Part shown: piece after piece, positions 23,279-31,134 of the stretch
How positions within the stretch are numbered: the first letter of the stretch is position 1
How the letters are laid out: every line of letters starts with the position of its first letter
Assembly (NCBI GenBank): GCA_035652535.1
Contig: DASRDP010000126.1
Coordinates: 1-33,669, forward strand
Origin: Chloroflexota bacterium
GTDB lineage: Bacteria > Chloroflexota > UBA6077 > SHYK01
DNA length: 33,669 nt
Reading direction: 5' to 3'
Notes under the pieces: generated by a model
The model's input: the letters and a program-made list of their open reading frames with translations, nothing else
The model's database searches: none
What the model was told of the DNA's origin: nothing
Translations under genes and position numbers: made by a program

Positions 23279-23397
23279 ACTGCGCCTCCTCGGATGGTGA
23301 TCAAGCGTCCGAGGATAGCACACGGATCGCAGGGCCGCGAGGAGCGGCCGCGACGGCGGGGACCGTCAGTGGCCAAGGGGCCACGGTGGCGCGTCAC

Positions 23398-23606
23398 GCG
23401 TGGGCTGGGGCGCTCTGCTTCGGGTCGATGGGAGCCGCGCCGGCGCGTCAGGCGTGGGCTGGGGCGCTCTGCTTCGGGTCGATGGGAGCCGCGCCGGCGC
23501 GTCAGGCGTGGGCTGGGGCGCTCTGCTTCGGGTCGATGGGAGCCGCGCCGGCGCGTCAGGCGTGGGCCGGGGCGCTCTGCTTCGGGTCGATGGGAGCCGC
23601 GCCGGC
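23398..23606. repeat. 54-bp tandem repeat (3.9 copies) at the 3' end of the VOC gene
   Basis: The unit starts GCGTGGGCTGGGGCGCTCTG and ends GCGCGTCAG. Copies lie at 23398-23451, 23452-23505, 23506-23559 and 23560-23606 (partial). They are almost identical; one C/T difference is visible in the last copy. On the minus strand each unit encodes the tail GAAPIDPKQSAPAHA and a TGA, so the repeat is a multiplied gene 3' end including the stop. The unit is 18 codons long, so loss of the first stop would extend the protein in frame. Confidence 0.9.
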
Positions 23607-23960
23607 CCAGTGGCCGAGGTCGATCTCGATGTTCTCGATGCCGGTGTACTTCACCTCGTAGTTCACCGGGCCCATGTCGATGCGGTTCATCTGGGTGGCG
23701 CCGAGCGCCTCGAGGCGCTGCCGCGTGGCGGCCTCGTCCGCGACGGTAAAGCCGATGTGCTCGATGCCGGGGCGCGGGACCTTGCCGTCGCCGCGGGCGA
23801 TGCGCATGGGCAGGATCGTGATGTTCAGTGTGCCGTCGGTCAGGTCGACGGCGCCGTTGGATCGGCGCTGGACGATCTCCATCTCGAGGCCCTGCACGAA
23901 GAAATTGGCCATGGCCTCGACGTCCTCGGATCGGTACGCGATGTGCCGGATCTTGCCCAC
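23556..23960 (-). CDS. VOC (glyoxalase/extradiol-fold) family protein
   Basis: A 134-residue single-domain vicinal-oxygen-chelate protein. It shows IRHIAYRSEDVEAMANFF at the N-terminus with a likely metal ligand His6, IEHIGFTVADEAATRQRLEA at the start of the second beta-alpha module, and YTGIENIEIDLGHW near the C-terminus with a likely Glu ligand. Such proteins include lyases, epimerases and dioxygenases, and I cannot choose between them. The last 15 residues come from a 54-bp unit repeated downstream of the stop. GGGAGGTGAT lies upstream of the ATG at 23960. It is divergent from the DsbA-like gene. Confidence 0.85.
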   Translation of the reverse strand: MGKIRHIAYRSEDVEAMANFFVQGLEMEIVQRRSNGAVDLTDGTLNITILPMRIARGDGKVPRPGIEHIGFTVADEAATRQRLEALGATQMNRIDMGPVNYEVKYTGIENIEIDLGHWAGAAPIDPKQSAPAHA

Positions 23961-24064: not shown

Positions 24065-24667
24065 GTGTCGATCGAGCTGACCGTCTTCAGCGACTTCATC
24101 TGACCGTGGTGCTACGTCGGCCAGGCTCGGGTCGACAGGCTGGCGCGGGAGTACGACGTAGTCGTACGCTACCACGCCTTCGATCTGCATCCGGGTATCC
24201 CGCTCGAGGGTCAGAAGATCCCCTGGGACCCGGCGACGATGGCGGCGCGGCGTGGGCGTTTCGCCGAGGCGGCGGCTGCCGAGGGTCTGGAGGTGGGGGA
24301 GCGCACCCACTGGTACAATTCCGCGCCGGCGCACCAGGCCGCCCTGTGGGCCGATGAGCGGGGGAAGGGCGCGGAGTTTCGTCACCAGGTGTTTCGCGCC
24401 TACTTCGTGGACGATCGCAACATCGGCTCGGCCGACGTGCTGGGCGAGATCGCGACCGGGCTTGGATTGGACGCGGCGGGTCTCCGGTGCGCGCTCTCGG
24501 AGGAGGCGTACGCGGGGCGGGTGGAGCAGGAGTACGAGGCGGCGCGGGAGCTGGGCGTGACGGCGGTGCCGACGTTCGTGGCCGGCGGGTACGCCGTGGT
24601 GGGCGCGCACCCGTACGAGAGCTTCGAGCGGCTGATGGAGGCGGTCGGCGGGCAGCGGCGAGGTTAG
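24065..24667 (+). CDS. DsbA/FrnE-type thioredoxin-fold oxidoreductase, candidate selenoprotein (UGA at 24101-24103)
   Basis: Reading through one TGA, this frame gives a complete 200-residue DsbA/FrnE-like protein. The first strand is SIELTVFSDF, followed by I-TGA-PWCYVG where relatives have CPWCYVG. Further family features are FDLHPGIPLEGQ, the helical insert with RHQVFRAYFVDDRNIG and the cis-proline motif VTAVPTFVAGGYAVVGAHP. The TGA stands exactly at the first Cys of the CxxC pair (position 13), and the resolving Cys16 is present. A SECIS-like hairpin lies downstream. Selenocysteine insertion is the most interesting reading; a TGC-to-TGA nonsense mutation or sequencing error is the alternative. 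The frame downstream is open to TAG at 24665. The start is GTG at 24065 with a GGGGGTGG stretch upstream. There is no signal peptide, so the protein is cytoplasmic, as FrnE-like proteins often are. Confidence 0.7.
24116..24136 (+). promoter_or_regulatory. Candidate bacterial SECIS hairpin
   Basis: GTCGGCC (24116-24122) pairs with GGTCGAC (24130-24136) through seven base pairs including one G-U. The 7-nt loop is AGGCTCG (24123-24129). The loop starts 19 nt after the TGA at 24101-24103 and has G at its second position, like the AGGUCU loop of Escherichia coli fdhF. Spacing and form fit the general bacterial SECIS pattern. Hairpins of this size also arise by chance in GC-rich DNA. Confidence 0.5.
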
Positions 24668-24784: not shown

Positions 24785-24800
24785 TAGAACAAACGTTCTA
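24785..24800 (+). promoter_or_regulatory. LexA/SOS-box-like palindrome upstream of the terminase gene
   Basis: TAGAACAAACGTTCTA contains GAAC-AAAC-GTTC, a perfect match to the GAACRNRYGTTC form of the Bacillus/Actinobacteria LexA box. It is flanked by TCGA on both sides, extending the symmetry. A TATTCT (24775-24780) just upstream could be a -10, so a bound repressor would overlap the transcription start. The terminase GTG lies 14 nt after the GTTC. Confidence 0.6.
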
Positions 24801-24811
24801 TCGAGGATGCC

Positions 24812-26587
24812 GTGGCCGAGTCCAGCGACCAGCTACTCTCCCCGCGCGAGGAGGGCCTCCGCCGACTCCTCGCCGACATCGAGCTGTTCAGCCGCCACGT
24901 CGTCGGCGTGCCGCTTCGTCCCTATCAGCTCGAGCCGGCTCGGGCGATTCTCGACTCCGTTCTCCACCATCGCGGCCGAACCTTCACCGTGATGATGAGC
25001 CGCCAGGCCGGCAAGAACGAGCTTTCCGCCCAGCTCGAGGCGTACCTCCTCAATCTCTTCCAGCGCACCGGCGGCGTCGTGGTCAAGGCCGCGCCCACCT
25101 TCCGTCCGCAGATCGTGAACAGCATCCTGCGGCTCGAGCGGACGCTGGAGAACGGCCTGAACCGCGGCCGCTGGACACGCCAGCTCGGCTCGATGATCCA
25201 GCTCGGCCGCGCGCGCGTCTCCTTCTTCTCCGGCGAGCCGGAGAGCCACGTCGTCGGCGCCACCGCCAGCCTCCTCCTCGAGGTCGATGAGGCGCAGGAC
25301 TTCGACGAGGAGAAGTACCTGAAGGACTTCCGCCCCATGGGCGCCACGACGAACGTGACGACGGTGCTCTATGGGACGGCCTGGACGGCCGACACCCTGC
25401 TGGAGCGGGCGCGCCGCGAGAACGTGCGCCTGGAAGCGGCGGACGGCGAGCGCCGCGACTTTCGCTACCCCTGGTACGTGGTGGCGGCCCACAACCCAGA
25501 CTACCGCGCCTATGTCGAGGCGGAGATGGCGCGGATGGGGCCGGAGCACCCGCTGGTCCGCACCCAGTATCTGCTCGACGCCGTCGAGAACGGGGGCCGC
25601 TTCCTCTCGGAGACGCAGCTCGCTCAGCTTCGGGGCGAGCATCCGCGGCTGGCGAGCCCGGGGGGTACCCCCCTCCCCGACCCTCCCCCGCAAGGGGGGA
25701 GGGGAGAGATAGCCCCCTCACCCTCCCCCTGTCCCCCACGCGTGGGGGACAGGGGACTCTTCGGTGATCGGCCCGCGCCCGATTCCGCGGGGGAGAGGGG
25801 ACTCTACGTCGCCGGGATCGACGTGGCGGGGGAGGACGAGCAGGCGGAGGACTCTGCCCTCCGGTCGCTCAAGCCGCGCAAGGATTCGACCGCCGTCACC
25901 ATCTGCGCCGTCACGTGGGCCCCCCTACCCCGACCCTCCCCCGCGAGGGGGGAGGGAGGCACTGGAGGCGGCTCCCCCGCGAGGGGGGAGGGAGGCACTG
26001 GAGGCGGCTCCTCCGCGAGGGGGGAAGAGGACCGCGGGGATAGTGGCGCGGCCTTCTCTCCCGAGCCGGTGCGGCTCGCGCCTCGTGCCTCTCTGGCAGA
26101 ACCCACGATTCACATCGTTCAGCACTACTGGTGGACGGGACGGAAGCACCGCGAGCTGTTCCCTCAGCTCGTCGACCTGCTGAAGCACGTCTGGGGCTGC
26201 CGCGCCGTGGTGATCGACGCCACCGGCGTCGGCGCCGGGGTGGCGAGCTTCCTGGTCGGCGCCCTGCCGGGCGTGGCGCGGCCGTTCCTCTTCACCGCGG
26301 CCTCGAAGAGCGCCCTGGGCTACGGGCTGCTGGGGGCGATCAACGGCGGCCGCTTGAAGATGTACGCGGAGGGCGGCAAGCCCGGCTCCACGGCGTCCCC
26401 GGAGAGCGCGGAGTTCTGGGAAGAGATGCGCCTCGCGCAGTCCACGCTGCACGAGAACCAGCGCCTCTCCTTCTTCGTCGACCCGCGCGAGGGCCACGAC
26501 GACCTGCTGATGTCCCTCGCGCTGGCGGTGGAAGCCGCGGCCGGGACGCAGCCCCGCGTCGCCCGCGGGCTGAGGGCCGCGCGATGA
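24812..26587 (+). CDS. Phage terminase large subunit
   Basis: A 591-residue DNA-packaging motor protein. The ATPase part has the terminase-type Walker A SRQAGKNE (residues 63-70) and Walker B LLLEVDEAQDF (154-164, Glu160). The RuvC-like nuclease part begins GLYVAGIDVAGEDE with Asp337 and ends near EGHDDLLMSLALA. Two Gly/Pro-rich low-complexity inserts interrupt it, at about residues 285-330 (between ATPase and nuclease) and 370-413 (inside the nuclease domain, after the first strand). Both are made of palindromic repeat DNA and stay in frame. The start is GTG at 24812, with GAGGAT just upstream. The stop overlaps the portal start as ATGA. Whether the protein still packages DNA is unclear. Confidence 0.9.
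   Translation: MAESSDQLLSPREEGLRRLLADIELFSRHVVGVPLRPYQLEPARAILDSVLHHRGRTFTVMMSRQAGKNELSAQLEAYLLNLFQRTGGVVVKAAPTFRPQIVNSILRLERTLENGLNRGRWTRQLGSMIQLGRARVSFFSGEPESHVVGATASLLLEVDEAQDFDEEKYLKDFRPMGATTNVTTVLYGTAWTADTLLERARRENVRLEAADGERRDFRYPWYVVAAHNPDYRAYVEAEMARMGPEHPLVRTQYLLDAVENGGRFLSETQLAQLRGEHPRLASPGGTPLPDPPPQGGRGEIAPSPSPCPPRVGDRGLFGDRPAPDSAGERGLYVAGIDVAGEDEQAEDSALRSLKPRKDSTAVTICAVTWAPLPRPSPARGEGGTGGGSPARGEGGTGGGSSARGEEDRGDSGAAFSPEPVRLAPRASLAEPTIHIVQHYWWTGRKHRELFPQLVDLLKHVWGCRAVVIDATGVGAGVASFLVGALPGVARPFLFTAASKSALGYGLLGAINGGRLKMYAEGGKPGSTASPESAEFWEEMRLAQSTLHENQRLSFFVDPREGHDDLLMSLALAVEAAAGTQPRVARGLRAAR
25665..25802 (+). repeat. Palindromic repeat insert inside the terminase gene
   Basis: This stretch contains several G/C palindromes: CTCCCCGACCCTCCCCCGCA with AGGGGGGAGGGGAG, then TGTCCCCCACGCGTGGGGGACA, then GCGGGGGAGAGGGGACTC. 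These are dispersed-repeat sequences rather than protein-derived ones. They encode a Pro/Gly/Arg-rich linker between the ATPase and nuclease domains. Confidence 0.75.
25936..26027 (+). repeat. 36-bp tandem repeat inside the terminase gene
   Basis: The unit starts CTCCCCCGCGAGGGGGGAGG and ends CACTGGAGGCGG. Two full copies (25936-25971, 25972-26007) and a partial third (26008-26027) encode SPARGEGGTGGG repeats in frame. Each unit contains the palindrome CTCCCCCGCGAGGGGGGAG. Confidence 0.85.
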
Positions 26588-28143
26588 GGATGATCGCCCG
26601 CGCCCTGCCCCTTCCCCGTCGACAGGGTCCGGATGAGCCGGGGCTCGCACTGCTGGCGCAGCTCCGGGCGCGCGACGCCGGGCGGCTGCGCGGATACCAG
26701 GACCTGCTCGACTTCTACGACGGGACGCACTTCACTCGGCCCCGCCGCGGGCGAACGAGCCTCGTGGTGAACTACGCCCGGGCCGTGGCGGACAAGGGCG
26801 TCGCGTACCTCTTCGGCCGCGGCGTGCGGTTCTCCGTCCCCGTCGAGCGCGAGGAGGCTGCCCCCACCCCACCCTCCCCCGCTGCGGCAGGGAAGGGTGC
26901 AAGTTCACCCCCCTCTCCCGCCGTGGCACGAGAGGGAGCCCTTCCGTTGCCTCGCCCCCCTCTGGGGGGAGAGGCCGGCCGCGCCGACAAGGCGCGGGCG
27001 GGAGAGGGGGCACCCGGGGCGGGGGAGGAAAAGGCGCGCGCGGCCGAGCGGCTCCTGAATCGCATCGCCGAGGAGAACGACCTGGATCTGGTGCTGCTCC
27101 AGGCCGCGACGAACGCCTCGGTGCTGGGCGACGCCGTGCTGAAGGTCCTCTGGGACGCGGCGGGGCGCGTGCGCGTGGTGAACGTGGATCCTTTCTGCTT
27201 CTTTCCCACCTGGGCGAGCGACGATATCGCCACACTCCGCGAGGTCGTCCTCGCCGGGCGCGTCAGCGCGGCCGAGGCCGCCGAGCGCTTCGGCGTGACT
27301 CGAGGCCCCGCGCCGAGCGGGAGCGCGGCGGCCCCGGCGATGCTGGACACCATCGAGCGATGGACCGATGCGCGCTTCCAGCTCGTCGTGGGAGACCAGG
27401 TCGTGCGAGATGGGCCGAACCCCTACGGGTTCATCCCCTTCGTGCACGTGGCCAACCTCCAGCCCCCGAATAGCGCCTGGGGCGTGTCGGACCTGGCGCA
27501 GCTCATCGCGCTGAACCGCGAGCTGGACGAGCGCATGAGCGACCAGGCCGACCTGATTCGCTACCACGCGGACCCGCCGGTCGTGTTTCGCGGCATCGAG
27601 GAGCACTCGGACCTGCCCGTCGGCCCGGGAACGGTGTGGGACCTCCCGCGCGACGCCGACGTGGCGCTCCTGGAGTGGCGGGGCAACGCGCCTGCCCTCC
27701 AGGACCACATCGAGCGCGTGCTCCGAGCCATCTACGACGTGTCCGAGACGCCGCGAACGAGCTTCGGCGACTCCGGCCGCCTGCTCTCGGGCGTGGCGTT
27801 GGAGACCGAGCTGCAGCCGCTGGTCCATCGCACGCTGCGCAAGCGGGTGGGCTGGAGCGCGGCGCTGCGCCGATGCGCGCGCATGGTGCTAACGCTCGTC
27901 GAGCGGTTCGAACCCGGCCGCGCGCCCGGGGCGTTCGCGCCGTACCGCGCCCAGGTGATCTGGCCGCAGATGCTCCCGCGCGACGACGACGCCGACGCAC
28001 AGCGGAACTTGAGTCTGGTGCAGGGGGGATTGCGCTCGCACCGCGGGGCGATGGAGGCCCTGGGCGATCTGGACCCGGAGGTCGAGCTGGAGCGCGTCCG
28101 AGCGGATCGGGCCTTTCTCGATCCGCCGAGGACGGTGCTGTGA
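26584..28143 (+). CDS. Phage portal protein (SPP1 gp6-like)
   Basis: A 519-residue portal-type protein, which forms the DNA channel at the capsid vertex. Evidence is the N-terminal LLDFYDGTHFTRPRRG and NYARAVADKGVAYLFGRGV, and the central ALNRELDERMSDQADLIRYH, PVVFRGIEEH and SGRLLSGVALETELQPLV, all typical of SPP1 gp6-like portals, together with its place directly after the terminase. The start is the ATG at 26584 in an ATGA overlap; a longer open frame upstream overlaps the terminase and is rejected. Residues about 90-149 are a Pro/Ala/Gly-rich insert made of palindromic repeat DNA that is unlikely to be part of the original fold. The body after the insert (RAAERLLNRIAEENDLDLVL) is normal. 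Confidence 0.85.
   Translation: MRMIARALPLPRRQGPDEPGLALLAQLRARDAGRLRGYQDLLDFYDGTHFTRPRRGRTSLVVNYARAVADKGVAYLFGRGVRFSVPVEREEAAPTPPSPAAAGKGASSPPSPAVAREGALPLPRPPLGGEAGRADKARAGEGAPGAGEEKARAAERLLNRIAEENDLDLVLLQAATNASVLGDAVLKVLWDAAGRVRVVNVDPFCFFPTWASDDIATLREVVLAGRVSAAEAAERFGVTRGPAPSGSAAAPAMLDTIERWTDARFQLVVGDQVVRDGPNPYGFIPFVHVANLQPPNSAWGVSDLAQLIALNRELDERMSDQADLIRYHADPPVVFRGIEEHSDLPVGPGTVWDLPRDADVALLEWRGNAPALQDHIERVLRAIYDVSETPRTSFGDSGRLLSGVALETELQPLVHRTLRKRVGWSAALRRCARMVLTLVERFEPGRAPGAFAPYRAQVIWPQMLPRDDDADAQRNLSLVQGGLRSHRGAMEALGDLDPEVELERVRADRAFLDPPRTVL
26851..27030 (+). repeat. Palindromic repeat insert inside the portal gene
   Basis: The DNA has CCCCCACCCCACCCTCCCCC, CCCCCCTCTCCCGCCGTGGC and CGCCCCCCTCTGGGGGGAGA blocks with GAGAGGGGG counterparts, all of dispersed-repeat style. 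It reads as an in-frame Pro/Ala/Gly-rich segment of about 60 residues. Confidence 0.65.
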
Positions 28144-28149
28144 GGGGCG

Positions 28150-28287
28150 CCATGCTGAGCGCGGCGAAGCATTGTTGTCAGGCGAGATCCTTCGGGCTTC
28201 GCCCTCAGGATGACCGTTTCGTCAGACGCCATCAGGATGGCCGTTTCGTCAGACGCCCTCAGGATGGCCGTTTCGTCAGATGGCCTA
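28150..28287 (+). repeat. Dispersed repeat fragment plus 27-bp tandem repeats
   Basis: ATGCTGAGCGCGGCGAAGCA and GAGATCCTTCGGGCTTCGCC followed by CTCAGGATGAC match the repeat found twice at 33016-33080 and 33220-33285. It is followed by three copies of a 27-bp unit (AGGATGGCCGTTTCGTCAGA plus CGCCCTC) at 28207-28233, 28234-28260 and 28261-28287 (the last diverged). The stretch separates the portal gene from the zinc-ribbon gene and has no convincing gene of its own. Confidence 0.8.
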
Positions 28288-28323
28288 CGGCCGTGCGCCA
28301 GCTCGACCAGGGCTGATCCAGAG

Positions 28324-28614
28324 ATGAGCGAGACGATGAGCAGGACGTGGAGAGACACGGAGGTGAGCACACGATGCGGGCGATGCGCGGGGCCGATGTT
28401 TCCCGACGAGGACGGCGACCGGTTCTGTCTCCTATGCGGCGAGCGGACCTATGGCTGGCTGAGCGGCTTCGTGGACTGGCTGGTGGACGCCATGGAGCGC
28501 CAGGCGCAGCGGGAGCGGGCTCGTGACCACGCGCGCCGGGCTGCGGTCGCTGGTTCGGCAGGAGCTCGGCGACGCCGGTGGGACGCAGTTGTGGGCCGAC
28601 GCACTCCTGAATGA
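28324..28614 (+). CDS. Small zinc-ribbon protein in phage module
   Basis: A 96-residue protein with two CxxC pairs (TRCGRCAGPMF and RFCLLCGERT) about 20 residues apart, a zinc-ribbon signature. A short helical segment (GFVDWLVDAMERQAQRER) and a basic tail follow. The ribosome site for the ATG at 28324 is weak, and the open frame extends further upstream through repeat DNA. The last 92 nt overlap the next gene in another frame, so the C-terminal tail may be a by-product. The role is unknown; small zinc-ribbon proteins are common between phage packaging and head genes. Confidence 0.55.
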   Translation: MSETMSRTWRDTEVSTRCGRCAGPMFPDEDGDRFCLLCGERTYGWLSGFVDWLVDAMERQAQRERARDHARRAAVAGSAGARRRRWDAVVGRRTPE

Positions 28615-29158
28615 GTGGATCGCCGAGGCGGTCCGTCTGTATGGACGCACGCTCCCCAAGGAGGCGACGGCGACGATCACCACTGTGGCGGACCAGGCGG
28701 CCTATGCCCTGCCTGCCAACCTCGAGCGCGTTCTGCGGGTGGAGTACCCGGCGGGCGTGCCGTGGAGCCCTCGGCTCGCCCTCCGACAGACGCAGGGCGA
28801 GGTGGGAGCGGAGAGCGGCGGCAGCTACGGCGCCTTCGCGGGCAACCTGGAGCTGAACCCCGCGCCCTCGGCCTCGGGAGAGGCCGTTCGCCTGGACTAT
28901 CTGGCGCGCTACGCGGAGCCAGCGGCGGATGGCGACACGCTGGAGACGCCCGCGAGCGACGACGACATCCTGCTGCGGCTCACGGTGGCACGGGCGCTGC
29001 GGTGGATCACCCTGGATGAGGCGAAGCGCCAGCGATTCGAGCGCCAGCGCGGGGCGAGCGCTTCCGACGTGGCGACGCTCTACGAGCAGGAGGCGCGGGA
29101 CCTCATGGAGGAACGAAAGCGGCGCGTGCGGACCGGGACGCTGAGCTGGGCCGGATGA
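28523..29158 (+). CDS. Phage head-tail adaptor-like protein
   Basis: A 211-residue protein with the pattern of head-completion or adaptor proteins: an N-terminal helix (LRSLVRQELGDAGGTQLWAD), LLNEWIAEAVRLYGRTLPKE, then a beta-rich middle and a helical C-terminus (DVATLYEQEARDLMEERKRR). The assignment rests on this pattern and on its place between the portal and capsid genes. The GTG at 28523 has GGGAG 7 nt upstream. In the middle, LALRQTQGE is encoded by CGCCCTCCGACAGACGCAGG, a near copy of the dispersed repeat that also gives DALRQAQGE in the following gene, so this gene too has absorbed repeat DNA. Confidence 0.6.
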   Translation: MTTRAGLRSLVRQELGDAGGTQLWADALLNEWIAEAVRLYGRTLPKEATATITTVADQAAYALPANLERVLRVEYPAGVPWSPRLALRQTQGEVGAESGGSYGAFAGNLELNPAPSASGEAVRLDYLARYAEPAADGDTLETPASDDDILLRLTVARALRWITLDEAKRQRFERQRGASASDVATLYEQEARDLMEERKRRVRTGTLSWAG

Positions 29159-29176
29159 ACGCAAAGGGGGAGATGC

Positions 29177-29728
29177 ATGGGAGAGAGCACAGCTCTGACC
29201 GTTCATGGTGAGCCCGTCGAACCACGAACGGACGCCCTTCGACAAGCTCAGGGCGAACGGGAGGATGTGGGCGAACGGGAGGATGTGGGCAAACGGGAGG
29301 ATGTGGGCGAGCGAGAGGATGTGGGCGAGCGAGAGGATGTGGGCGAGCGGGGTGAGGTGGAGGCGGAGATCGCAGCTCTGCGCGCGCAGCTCGCGGTCGT
29401 CCAGCAGGAGCACGAGCGTGAGGCGACCGCCCTGCGCGCGGCGGCTTCCGACGCGCAGCGCGGATGGGTCGAGGCCCACCGCCGGGCGATCCTCGCCGAG
29501 CACGCCGGGCAGATCGTGGAGGAGCTGGTGGCCGGCAGCACGATCGAGGAGCTGGACGCCAGCGTCGAGGTCGCCCGGGCGGCCTACGGCCGAGCGCTGG
29601 AGGCTGCGCGGCGCGAGTTGGGCGCGACGGTGATCCCCGTGGGCGCGTCGCCCCGCCTCGAGCCCAGCGCGGAGGATCTGAGCCCCATCGCCAAGATCAC
29701 CGCCGCGCTGAGCCGCAACCATCGATGA
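29177..29728 (+). CDS. Coiled-coil protein with EREDVG repeats (scaffold-like position)
   Basis: A 183-residue, highly charged protein. Residues about 12-26 (GEPVEPRTDALRQAQGE) are encoded by a dispersed chromosomal repeat. Residues about 27-56 are five hexapeptides of the form EREDVG from an 18-bp tandem repeat. The rest (about 60-150) is a long Ala/Glu/Arg-rich coiled coil (EAEIAALRAQLAVVQQEHER onwards). Its place before the capsid gene suggests a scaffold or assembly role, but that is inference. GGGGGAG precedes the ATG at 29177. The stop overlaps the next possible start as ATGA. Confidence 0.7.
   Translation: MGESTALTVHGEPVEPRTDALRQAQGEREDVGEREDVGKREDVGEREDVGEREDVGERGEVEAEIAALRAQLAVVQQEHEREATALRAAASDAQRGWVEAHRRAILAEHAGQIVEELVAGSTIEELDASVEVARAAYGRALEAARRELGATVIPVGASPRLEPSAEDLSPIAKITAALSRNHR
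29214..29344 (+). repeat. Dispersed repeat followed by five 18-bp tandem repeats, in frame
   Basis: ACGCCCTTCGACAAGCTCAG plus GGCGAACG (about 29231-29258) is the same element type as at 7438-7487. It merges into an 18-bp tandem array (GAACGGGAGGATGTGGGC and variants) with copies starting at 29255, 29273, 29291, 29309 and 29327. The first array unit appears to have grown from the repeat's own GGGCGAACGG end. Confidence 0.85.
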
Positions 29729-29754
29729 GTGAGACGACAGAAGGAGCGAGCAGG

Positions 29755-30162
29755 ATGACCGAGGCGCATGCCGGCAACGCCGCACACGAGGAGTACACCA
29801 ACCTGGCCTGGCAGGCCAACGTGAAGCGCACCTACGACGAGTATCAGCAGGAGTCGCTGGAGTCCATCCGGGAGCAGCGGCTCGTGTTCCACAAGCTGAT
29901 GTCTGATGCGCAGCAGTTCGACAACCAGCGCCAGGCGATCGCCAATCAGGCGCTGCAGAACGCCGTGGAGACGGCGAATCTGGTGGGCAAGCAGGCGACG
30001 CGCCACAGCGACCTCGCCATCGACCACCAGTGGAACGAGGAGCCGGCCCAGGCGGCGGGTGAGGCGGAGATCCTCCGGACGATGACCCTCGACGAGACGA
30101 GTCTGAAGGCGATCGGCGCCGCCGTGGCCGCGGCCGTTTCCGAGGCGCTGGCGAACAAGTAA
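29755..30162 (+). CDS. Small helical phage protein of unknown function
   Basis: A 135-residue soluble, mostly helical protein (ANVKRTYDEYQQESLESIRE, QQFDNQRQAIANQALQNAVE) with a short Ala-rich C-terminal helix (LKAIGAAVAAAVSEALANK). No family is recognised. It lies between the coiled-coil gene and the major capsid gene, so a scaffold, decoration or core role is possible. I chose the ATG at 29755 because AAGGAG lies 8 nt upstream; an ATG at 29725, overlapping the previous stop as ATGA, adds ten residues. Confidence 0.7.
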   Translation: MTEAHAGNAAHEEYTNLAWQANVKRTYDEYQQESLESIREQRLVFHKLMSDAQQFDNQRQAIANQALQNAVETANLVGKQATRHSDLAIDHQWNEEPAQAAGEAEILRTMTLDETSLKAIGAAVAAAVSEALANK

Positions 30163-30240
30163 GGAAGAGGCGCTGGGTCGGCGGGGTGGCGTCGCCGTCT
30201 CGCCGATCCAGCCGACCGGTTACTCAGAGGAGATGAGCCG

Positions 30241-31134
30241 ATGGCGCTGACGCTTGCGGAGAGCGCGAAGCTCTCCACCGACATGCTCCAGCGGGGCGTG
30301 ATCGAGACGATCATCGAGGAGTCGCCCATCTTTGCGTACCTCCCCTTTCTGACAGTGGAGGGGAACTCATTCAAATACAACCAGGAGAACACCCTGGGCG
30401 GCGCCAGCTTCTACGCCGTGAACGCCGTGTGGACCGAGGGCACGGCCACCTTCACCCAGAAGACGGCCAACCTCTCCATCCTGGGCGGGGACGCCGACGT
30501 CGACAACTTCATCCAGCGCACGCGGTCCAGCATTCAGGACCAGCGGGCGATCCAGACACAGCTCAAGGCCAAGAGCGTCGCTCGCGCCTTCGAGCAGACG
30601 GTGATCACCGGCGACAGCTCGGTGGATACCAACAGCTTCGACGGGCTGGTCAAGCTGGCCAGCTCCGCCCAAACCCTCGAGGTCGGGGCGACCGGCGGAG
30701 CGTTGACGCTGGCCCTGGTCGACCAGCTCATCGATCTGGTGAAGGGTGGGAAGCCGGACATCCTGCTGATGAGCCGGCGGACGCGCCGCAAGCTGAAGAG
30801 CCTGCTCCAGGCGTCGGCGCACTACGTCGAGAGCGGCACGACGGCGTTCGGGGCGCAGGTGATGATGTACGACGGCATTCCCGTGTACGTGTCGGATTTC
30901 CAGCCTGACACGGAGACGGGCTCGGGGGGAGGCTCAGCGCTCTCGAGCATGTACGCCATCCACTTCTCGGAGTCCGATGGCCTGTGCGGCCTGCAGAACG
31001 GGGCGATCGAGGTGGTGGACATCGGCCAGCTCGAGACGAAGGACGCGAGCCGTGTGCGCATCCGCTGGTATGTGGGGCTCGCCCTCATGCGGGACTCGGC
31101 GATCGCGCGGCTGCGCTCCATCAACGCCAGCTAG
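30241..31134 (+). CDS. Phage major capsid protein
   Basis: A 297-residue capsid protein. The N-terminal segment (MALTLAESAKLSTDMLQRGV, IETIIEESPIFAYLPF), KTANLSILGGDADVDNFIQ, the PDILLMSRRTRRKLKSLLQA strand-helix unit and GIPVYVSDFQPD are typical of HK97-fold major capsid proteins of siphophage-like elements. C-terminal strands include SMYAIHF and ASRVRIRWYVGLALMRDSAI. GAGGAG lies upstream of the ATG. It carries no repeat-derived insert, unlike its neighbours, which suggests it is still under selection. Confidence 0.87.
   Translation: MALTLAESAKLSTDMLQRGVIETIIEESPIFAYLPFLTVEGNSFKYNQENTLGGASFYAVNAVWTEGTATFTQKTANLSILGGDADVDNFIQRTRSSIQDQRAIQTQLKAKSVARAFEQTVITGDSSVDTNSFDGLVKLASSAQTLEVGATGGALTLALVDQLIDLVKGGKPDILLMSRRTRRKLKSLLQASAHYVESGTTAFGAQVMMYDGIPVYVSDFQPDTETGSGGGSALSSMYAIHFSESDGLCGLQNGAIEVVDIGQLETKDASRVRIRWYVGLALMRDSAIARLRSINAS

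Follow-up and report, generated by a model that had tools for sequence, protein, structure and literature searches.

The window, a 33,669-nt stretch of Chloroflexota DNA, carries a 200-codon gene whose UGA at codon 13 is very probably read as selenocysteine (Sec), which would place this residue in the active site of an enzyme that handles disulfides. On the sequence evidence laid out here, we put at roughly 95% the probability that the gene encodes a selenoprotein in which UGA-13 inserts Sec into an FrnE-type thiol/disulfide oxidoreductase. The features on which this reading rests are the following.

24065..24667, + strand: predicted Sec-containing FrnE-type DsbA-family gene; GTG start, TAG stop at 24665-24667, 200 codons plus stop
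24101..24103, + strand: in-frame TGA, codon 13, predicted selenocysteine, the U of U-P-W-C; the closest relatives also have TGA at this codon
24110..24112, + strand: Cys-16 codon (TGC), predicted resolving Cys; invariant in alignment A3
24116..24136, + strand: SECIS-type hairpin; stem GTCGGCC (24116-24122)/GGTCGAC (24130-24136), loop AGGCTCG (24123-24129)
24569..24571, + strand: Pro-169 codon, expected cis-Pro position opposite the active site of the thioredoxin fold; invariant in alignment A3 and placed with the structural model

An In-Frame TGA at the Active-Site Position of an FrnE-Type Gene

The frame at 24065-24667 contains no stop apart from the TGA at codon 13, which aligns with the first Cys of the CPWC catalytic motif in homologues. 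The earlier note had located a TGA precisely where the CPWC motif has its first active-site Cys, in a 200-codon frame that is otherwise intact, and both the description and its coordinates proved right. Reading the TGA as U gives SDFI-U-PWC-YVGQARVD around the active site; the residues preceding U13 are VSIELTVFSDFI, followed by U-PWCYVGQARVD. Besides U13, the protein contains only the cysteines C16 and C140. When the TGA is taken as a stop, the longest in-frame ORF left is one of 142 aa from 24239. Because gene calling of this kind drops the active site, the enzyme is easily overlooked or misannotated in Chloroflexota genomes.

A sequencing or assembly error, in which one base of a true TGC or TGT (Cys) codon was miscalled, might be considered, given that TGA lies one base away from either codon and that the window is a contig (C126) of a draft assembly (4.45 Mb, 98% complete, 168 contigs). 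However, the close relatives within the class (47–61% identity) each contain exactly one in-frame TGA, located at the same codon within a U-P-W/F/Y-C motif, and TGA at this codon recurs in independently assembled relatives over much of the phylum, which makes such an error extremely improbable. The alignment of homologues that the earlier note had called for thus reveals TGA, not Cys, in the close relatives, together with a conserved and covarying hairpin (see below).

It is also highly improbable that the gene is a pseudogene, with the TGA a real stop that inactivated a former Cys enzyme, or that only the downstream ORF is used. The frame is mechanically interrupted and the short ORF has a start of its own, but its product would lose the active site, there is no further stop or frameshift, and the TGA has been retained over deep divergence. 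In addition, coding constraint persists past the TGA. Compared with seven relatives, codons past the TGA differ at 0.50–0.58 of third positions and at 0.21–0.40 of first and second positions, and dN/dS in this region is 0.06–0.35 in nine pairs of closely related Sec genes. These comparisons indicate purifying selection on the part of the frame that lies downstream of the TGA.

The Genome Encodes a Selenocysteine Machinery

The earlier note proposed looking for selA, selB, selC, and selD in the same genome, and all four are found: SelA (447 bits) and SelB (338 bits for the main match, 366 with its neighbor in frame) on contig C104, SelD (380 bits; L011:1381-2600) on contig C130, and a tRNA-Sec (69.5 bits) to which ARAGORN assigns the anticodon tca. 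The SelD of this genome is itself a predicted selenoprotein, with a TGA in HCSGUASKIG.

Elsewhere in the window, TGA acts as an ordinary stop codon and ends three neighboring ORFs. With TGA in normal use as a stop and the Sec machinery present, a general reassignment of the codon is neither needed nor supported. Near-cognate tRNAs are known to read through UGA in bacteria, and a code change or leaky read-through by a normal tRNA, for example one for Trp, could place another amino acid at codon 13. The probability of this is very small, however, as the TGA stands exactly at the catalytic Cys, relatives alternate TGA with Cys codons and not with Trp codons, the neighboring ORFs use TGA as a stop, and the tRNA-Sec and SelB are accompanied by a covarying hairpin. 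Selenocysteine is thus the preferred reading of codon 13.

In the 80 genomes tested, SelB scored above the cut-off in 50 of the 51 with a Sec form and in 23 of the 29 with Cys forms only; six of the seven genomes without SelB are Cys-only (p 0.008). Genome G113 carries a TGA form, yet its SelB is not above the cut-off, perhaps owing to an incomplete assembly.

A SECIS-Type Hairpin Follows the TGA

The hairpin has seven pairs, one of which is G-U, and begins 12 nt past the TGA, with the loop 19 nt from that codon, exactly as the earlier note had described it. The published model for bacterial SECIS elements (bSECIS) specifies a loop of 3–9 nt, a stem of 4–16 bp, a spacing of 16–37 nt, a G in the first two loop positions, and a folding energy of at most −7.5 kcal/mol (PMC13188914). 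The window hairpin agrees with all of these constraints (7-nt loop AGGCUCG, 7 bp, 19 nt, −9.7 kcal/mol folded alone), and the suggested fit to a bacterial SECIS is borne out by the bSECIS rule, by folding, and by conservation and covariation in relatives. Against dinucleotide shuffles, the window hairpin does not stand out from what sequence this rich in GC would give (z −1.0), and 7% of its synonymous recodings fold as well; that it is more than chance is indicated by the joint recurrence of TGA and hairpin in the closest relatives. An Rfam search of the window returned no family, a result of little weight given how variable bacterial SECIS elements are.

For a family-wide test, the stretch 10–39 nt past the codon was compared with synonymous-codon recodings in 59 Sec and 41 Cys genes. 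The mean z was −1.81 in the Sec genes and −0.11 in the Cys genes (p 3e-11; p 6e-6 when only Chloroflexota Cys genes are compared), and the bSECIS rule, in our own implementation, holds for 44 of the 59 Sec genes, with 15 failing this simple rule, and for 6 of the 41 Cys genes (p 4e-9), all of these p values being inflated by shared ancestry. All six core stem pairs, in a common register, are present in 33 of 55 distinct Sec sequences and in none of 39 Cys sequences. Compensatory changes are also seen: three stem pairs have changed on both sides among 21 Sec rows, for which the covariation score is higher than in any of 500 shuffles or in any register reached by sliding, although these rows were picked for their common register and the test thus leans toward structure. 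The recoding, core-pair, and bSECIS-rule tests took all rows.

Predicted Fold and Function

The protein matches PF01323 (DSBA domain) at 123.7 bits (cut-off 25.6), and its best sequence match is Deinococcus radiodurans FrnE (5cnw, E 8.1e-27). The best PDB fold matches of its AlphaFold2 model (pLDDT 95.8) are likewise the D. radiodurans FrnE entries (TMq 0.85–0.90; 5coh top, TMq 0.88), followed by SCO1869, so that the fold ranking agrees with that of the sequence search. The DsbA/FrnE-type identity proposed in the earlier note therefore holds by both sequence and predicted fold. In the model, U13 lies just before helix 14-29 and P169 at the start of strand 170-173, positions that the active site and the cis-proline occupy in the thioredoxin fold. 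SCO1869, a putative DsbA oxidoreductase of Streptomyces coelicolor (PDB 3gl5), is the second-best family by sequence and fold, but the solved entry is not a selenoprotein and its function is not established there.

D. radiodurans FrnE (DR_0659; PDB 5cnw, 5coh, 5co3, 5cp1, 5xwh) is 31–32% identical to the window protein, has its CPWC motif at the same place and, like the window protein, has no signal peptide. It differs in having Cys where the window protein has Sec and in containing a C-terminal CX4C (residues 239-244), which is absent from the 200-residue sequence of the window protein. In D. radiodurans, the mutant shows sensitivity to cadmium and diamide, and a role as a cytoplasmic disulfide reductase, with the active site regenerated through this CX4C, has been proposed for FrnE (PMC8945050). 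The FrnE proteins of D. maricopensis and S. roseofulvus also lack the CX4C (PMC8945050), and the motif is thus not defining for FrnE. In the window protein, which lacks it, recycling would have to run through another partner.

The window protein sequence has no visible signal peptide and opens directly with the first beta strand, which suggests that the protein is probably cytoplasmic. The function that we infer as most likely is Sec-dependent reduction of disulfides in the cytoplasm, in which U13 would be the attacking and C16 the resolving residue; raised reactivity would be expected of the Sec form. In the mechanism that we infer, as regards Sec insertion, location, direction of catalysis, and substrates alike, SelB with Sec-tRNA(Sec) would bind the hairpin just past the UGA, and the ribosome would place Sec at codon 13 instead of stopping, to give a 200-residue FrnE-type thiol/disulfide oxidoreductase of DsbA fold. 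The Sec-13 selenolate would then attack a substrate disulfide or oxidized thiol, Cys-16 would resolve the mixed bond to leave an intramolecular Se–S bond, and a cellular reductant would reduce this bond.

Given the DsbA-type fold of the selenoprotein, its main activity might be that of a DsbA-like oxidase, a DsbC-like isomerase, or a seleno-peroxidase, and not that of a cytoplasmic disulfide reductase. We consider this unlikely, though a contender: the protein has no visible signal peptide, and Sec in UxxC motifs generally favors the reducing direction. The later proposal of a cytoplasmic reductase role for D. radiodurans FrnE (PMC8945050) also argues for the reductase.

Sec and Cys Forms across the Chloroflexota

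In a survey of 400 Chloroflexota genomes, with a relative defined as a match at E <= 1e-20, relatives are present in 94, of which 64 have an in-frame TGA copy and 30 have stop-free copies only; this split was counted from the search table, and the TGA position was checked in the fetched sequences. A gammaproteobacterial MAG (L025) also has UPWC, and a plasmid search returned distant relatives only, all at <60% identity. To explain the Sec/Cys labels, a protein tree built from 82 rows requires 9 changes (8–9 in bootstrap trees), compared with an average of 21 for shuffled labels. The tree thus contains long-lived Sec clades with repeated Sec/Cys switching. It is a tentative proposal, whose odds we place a little below even, that Sec is the default, perhaps ancestral, state of the cytoplasmic FrnE-type enzyme in much of the Chloroflexota and has repeatedly been converted to Cys, for which L111, described below, would be an example. 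If so, cytoplasmic selenium-dependent disulfide chemistry would be among the core traits of these lineages, and its recycling would not involve the CX4C of D. radiodurans FrnE. In this clade a single enzyme occurs naturally in dozens of Sec and Cys versions, with gain and loss of the SECIS, which makes the clade well suited to the questions of why selenium is retained in a redox enzyme and how a switch to Cys occurs.

Several individual sequences stand out. L111 (genome G268, which has SelB) contains a TGC Cys codon within an otherwise all-Sec clade and retains a strong hairpin (z −3.7) close to where the SECIS would lie; it may have switched from Sec to Cys recently, in which case the hairpin would be a SECIS relic. 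A distant relative, L076:1501-2013 (genome G022), has U-P-W-A, with a predicted Sec and no resolving Cys. L127 and L128, with two TGAs each, were considered as candidates for a double-Sec motif and rejected, the second TGA being C-terminal and evidently an ordinary stop.

Relation to Known Selenoprotein Families

The Sec-containing DsbA-like family was reported in 2005 from the Sargasso Sea survey, under COG2761 (the FrnE group), as nine sequences with UxxC (PMC1088965). A 2006 bacterial survey listed the family four times, with Anaeromyxobacter among the organisms (PMC1794560), and in GOS it appears as "DsbA 1," with 63 sequences (PMC2398784). Reviews of 2022 and 2026 list the family, the latter describing the functions of such proteins as largely uncharacterized. 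By published descriptions, this family (COG2761/PF01323, also "DsbA-like protein form 1") has in common with the window protein the PF01323 domain, a UxxC with Sec first, and a SECIS just downstream; as for the window gene, Cys homologues are widespread. The reported members come from marine metagenome reads and from a few genomes, whereas the window gene is from the Chloroflexota, in which the Sec form is widespread. A literature search of partial coverage found no paper describing the Sec DsbA-like family in this phylum. The kind of protein is already known, and the phylum-wide spread and SECIS covariation are modest additions; prior knowledge is extended by a Sec clade that is deep, spans the phylum Chloroflexota, and shows repeated Sec/Cys switches.

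The Rcas_1661 family thioredoxin-like (seleno)lipoprotein (NF041057; "DsbG-like"), which is included in the reviews, is also a thioredoxin-fold selenoprotein with UxxC, but the window protein matches NF041057 at 49.4 bits, over the C-terminal half only and below the curated 190-bit cut-off. The Rcas_1661-like Sec paralogues of sister genomes have a long export-type N terminus that is absent from the window protein. Sister genomes encode further DsbA-superfamily proteins with an in-frame TGA (L074, L075, L080-L085, and L087; UPFC, UPYC, UPAC, or UPGC) whose N termini are of the export type, as in the Rcas_1661 Sec lipoproteins. In the window's own genome, no DsbA-superfamily TGA protein was found besides the window gene.

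Genes and Repeats Flanking the Predicted Sec Gene

Prophage-like structural genes (24812-31134) start 145 nt past the Sec gene and include a portal gene (SPP1_portal, 26131-28143, 84 bits) and a major capsid gene (SU10_MCP, 30241-31134, 41 bits); the ORF at 24812-26587 is terminase-like by eye and has no Pfam match. Just upstream of the first phage-like gene lies a palindrome, AGAACAAACGTTCT (24786-24799), with the LexA-box-like core GAACNNNNGTTC; it is the sole match in the window, where 0.27 would be expected by chance. On the other side of the Sec gene, a 54-nt tandem repeat at 23388-23606 (4.1 copies, 98% alike) overlaps the 3′ end of a glyoxalase-type gene on the minus strand (23556-23960). 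GC-rich palindromic REP-like repeats (CCCTCCCCCGCGAGGGGGGAGGG and variants) are located in frame inside ORF 24812-26587, at 25660-26025, and part of them forms a 36-nt tandem repeat at 25936-26025.
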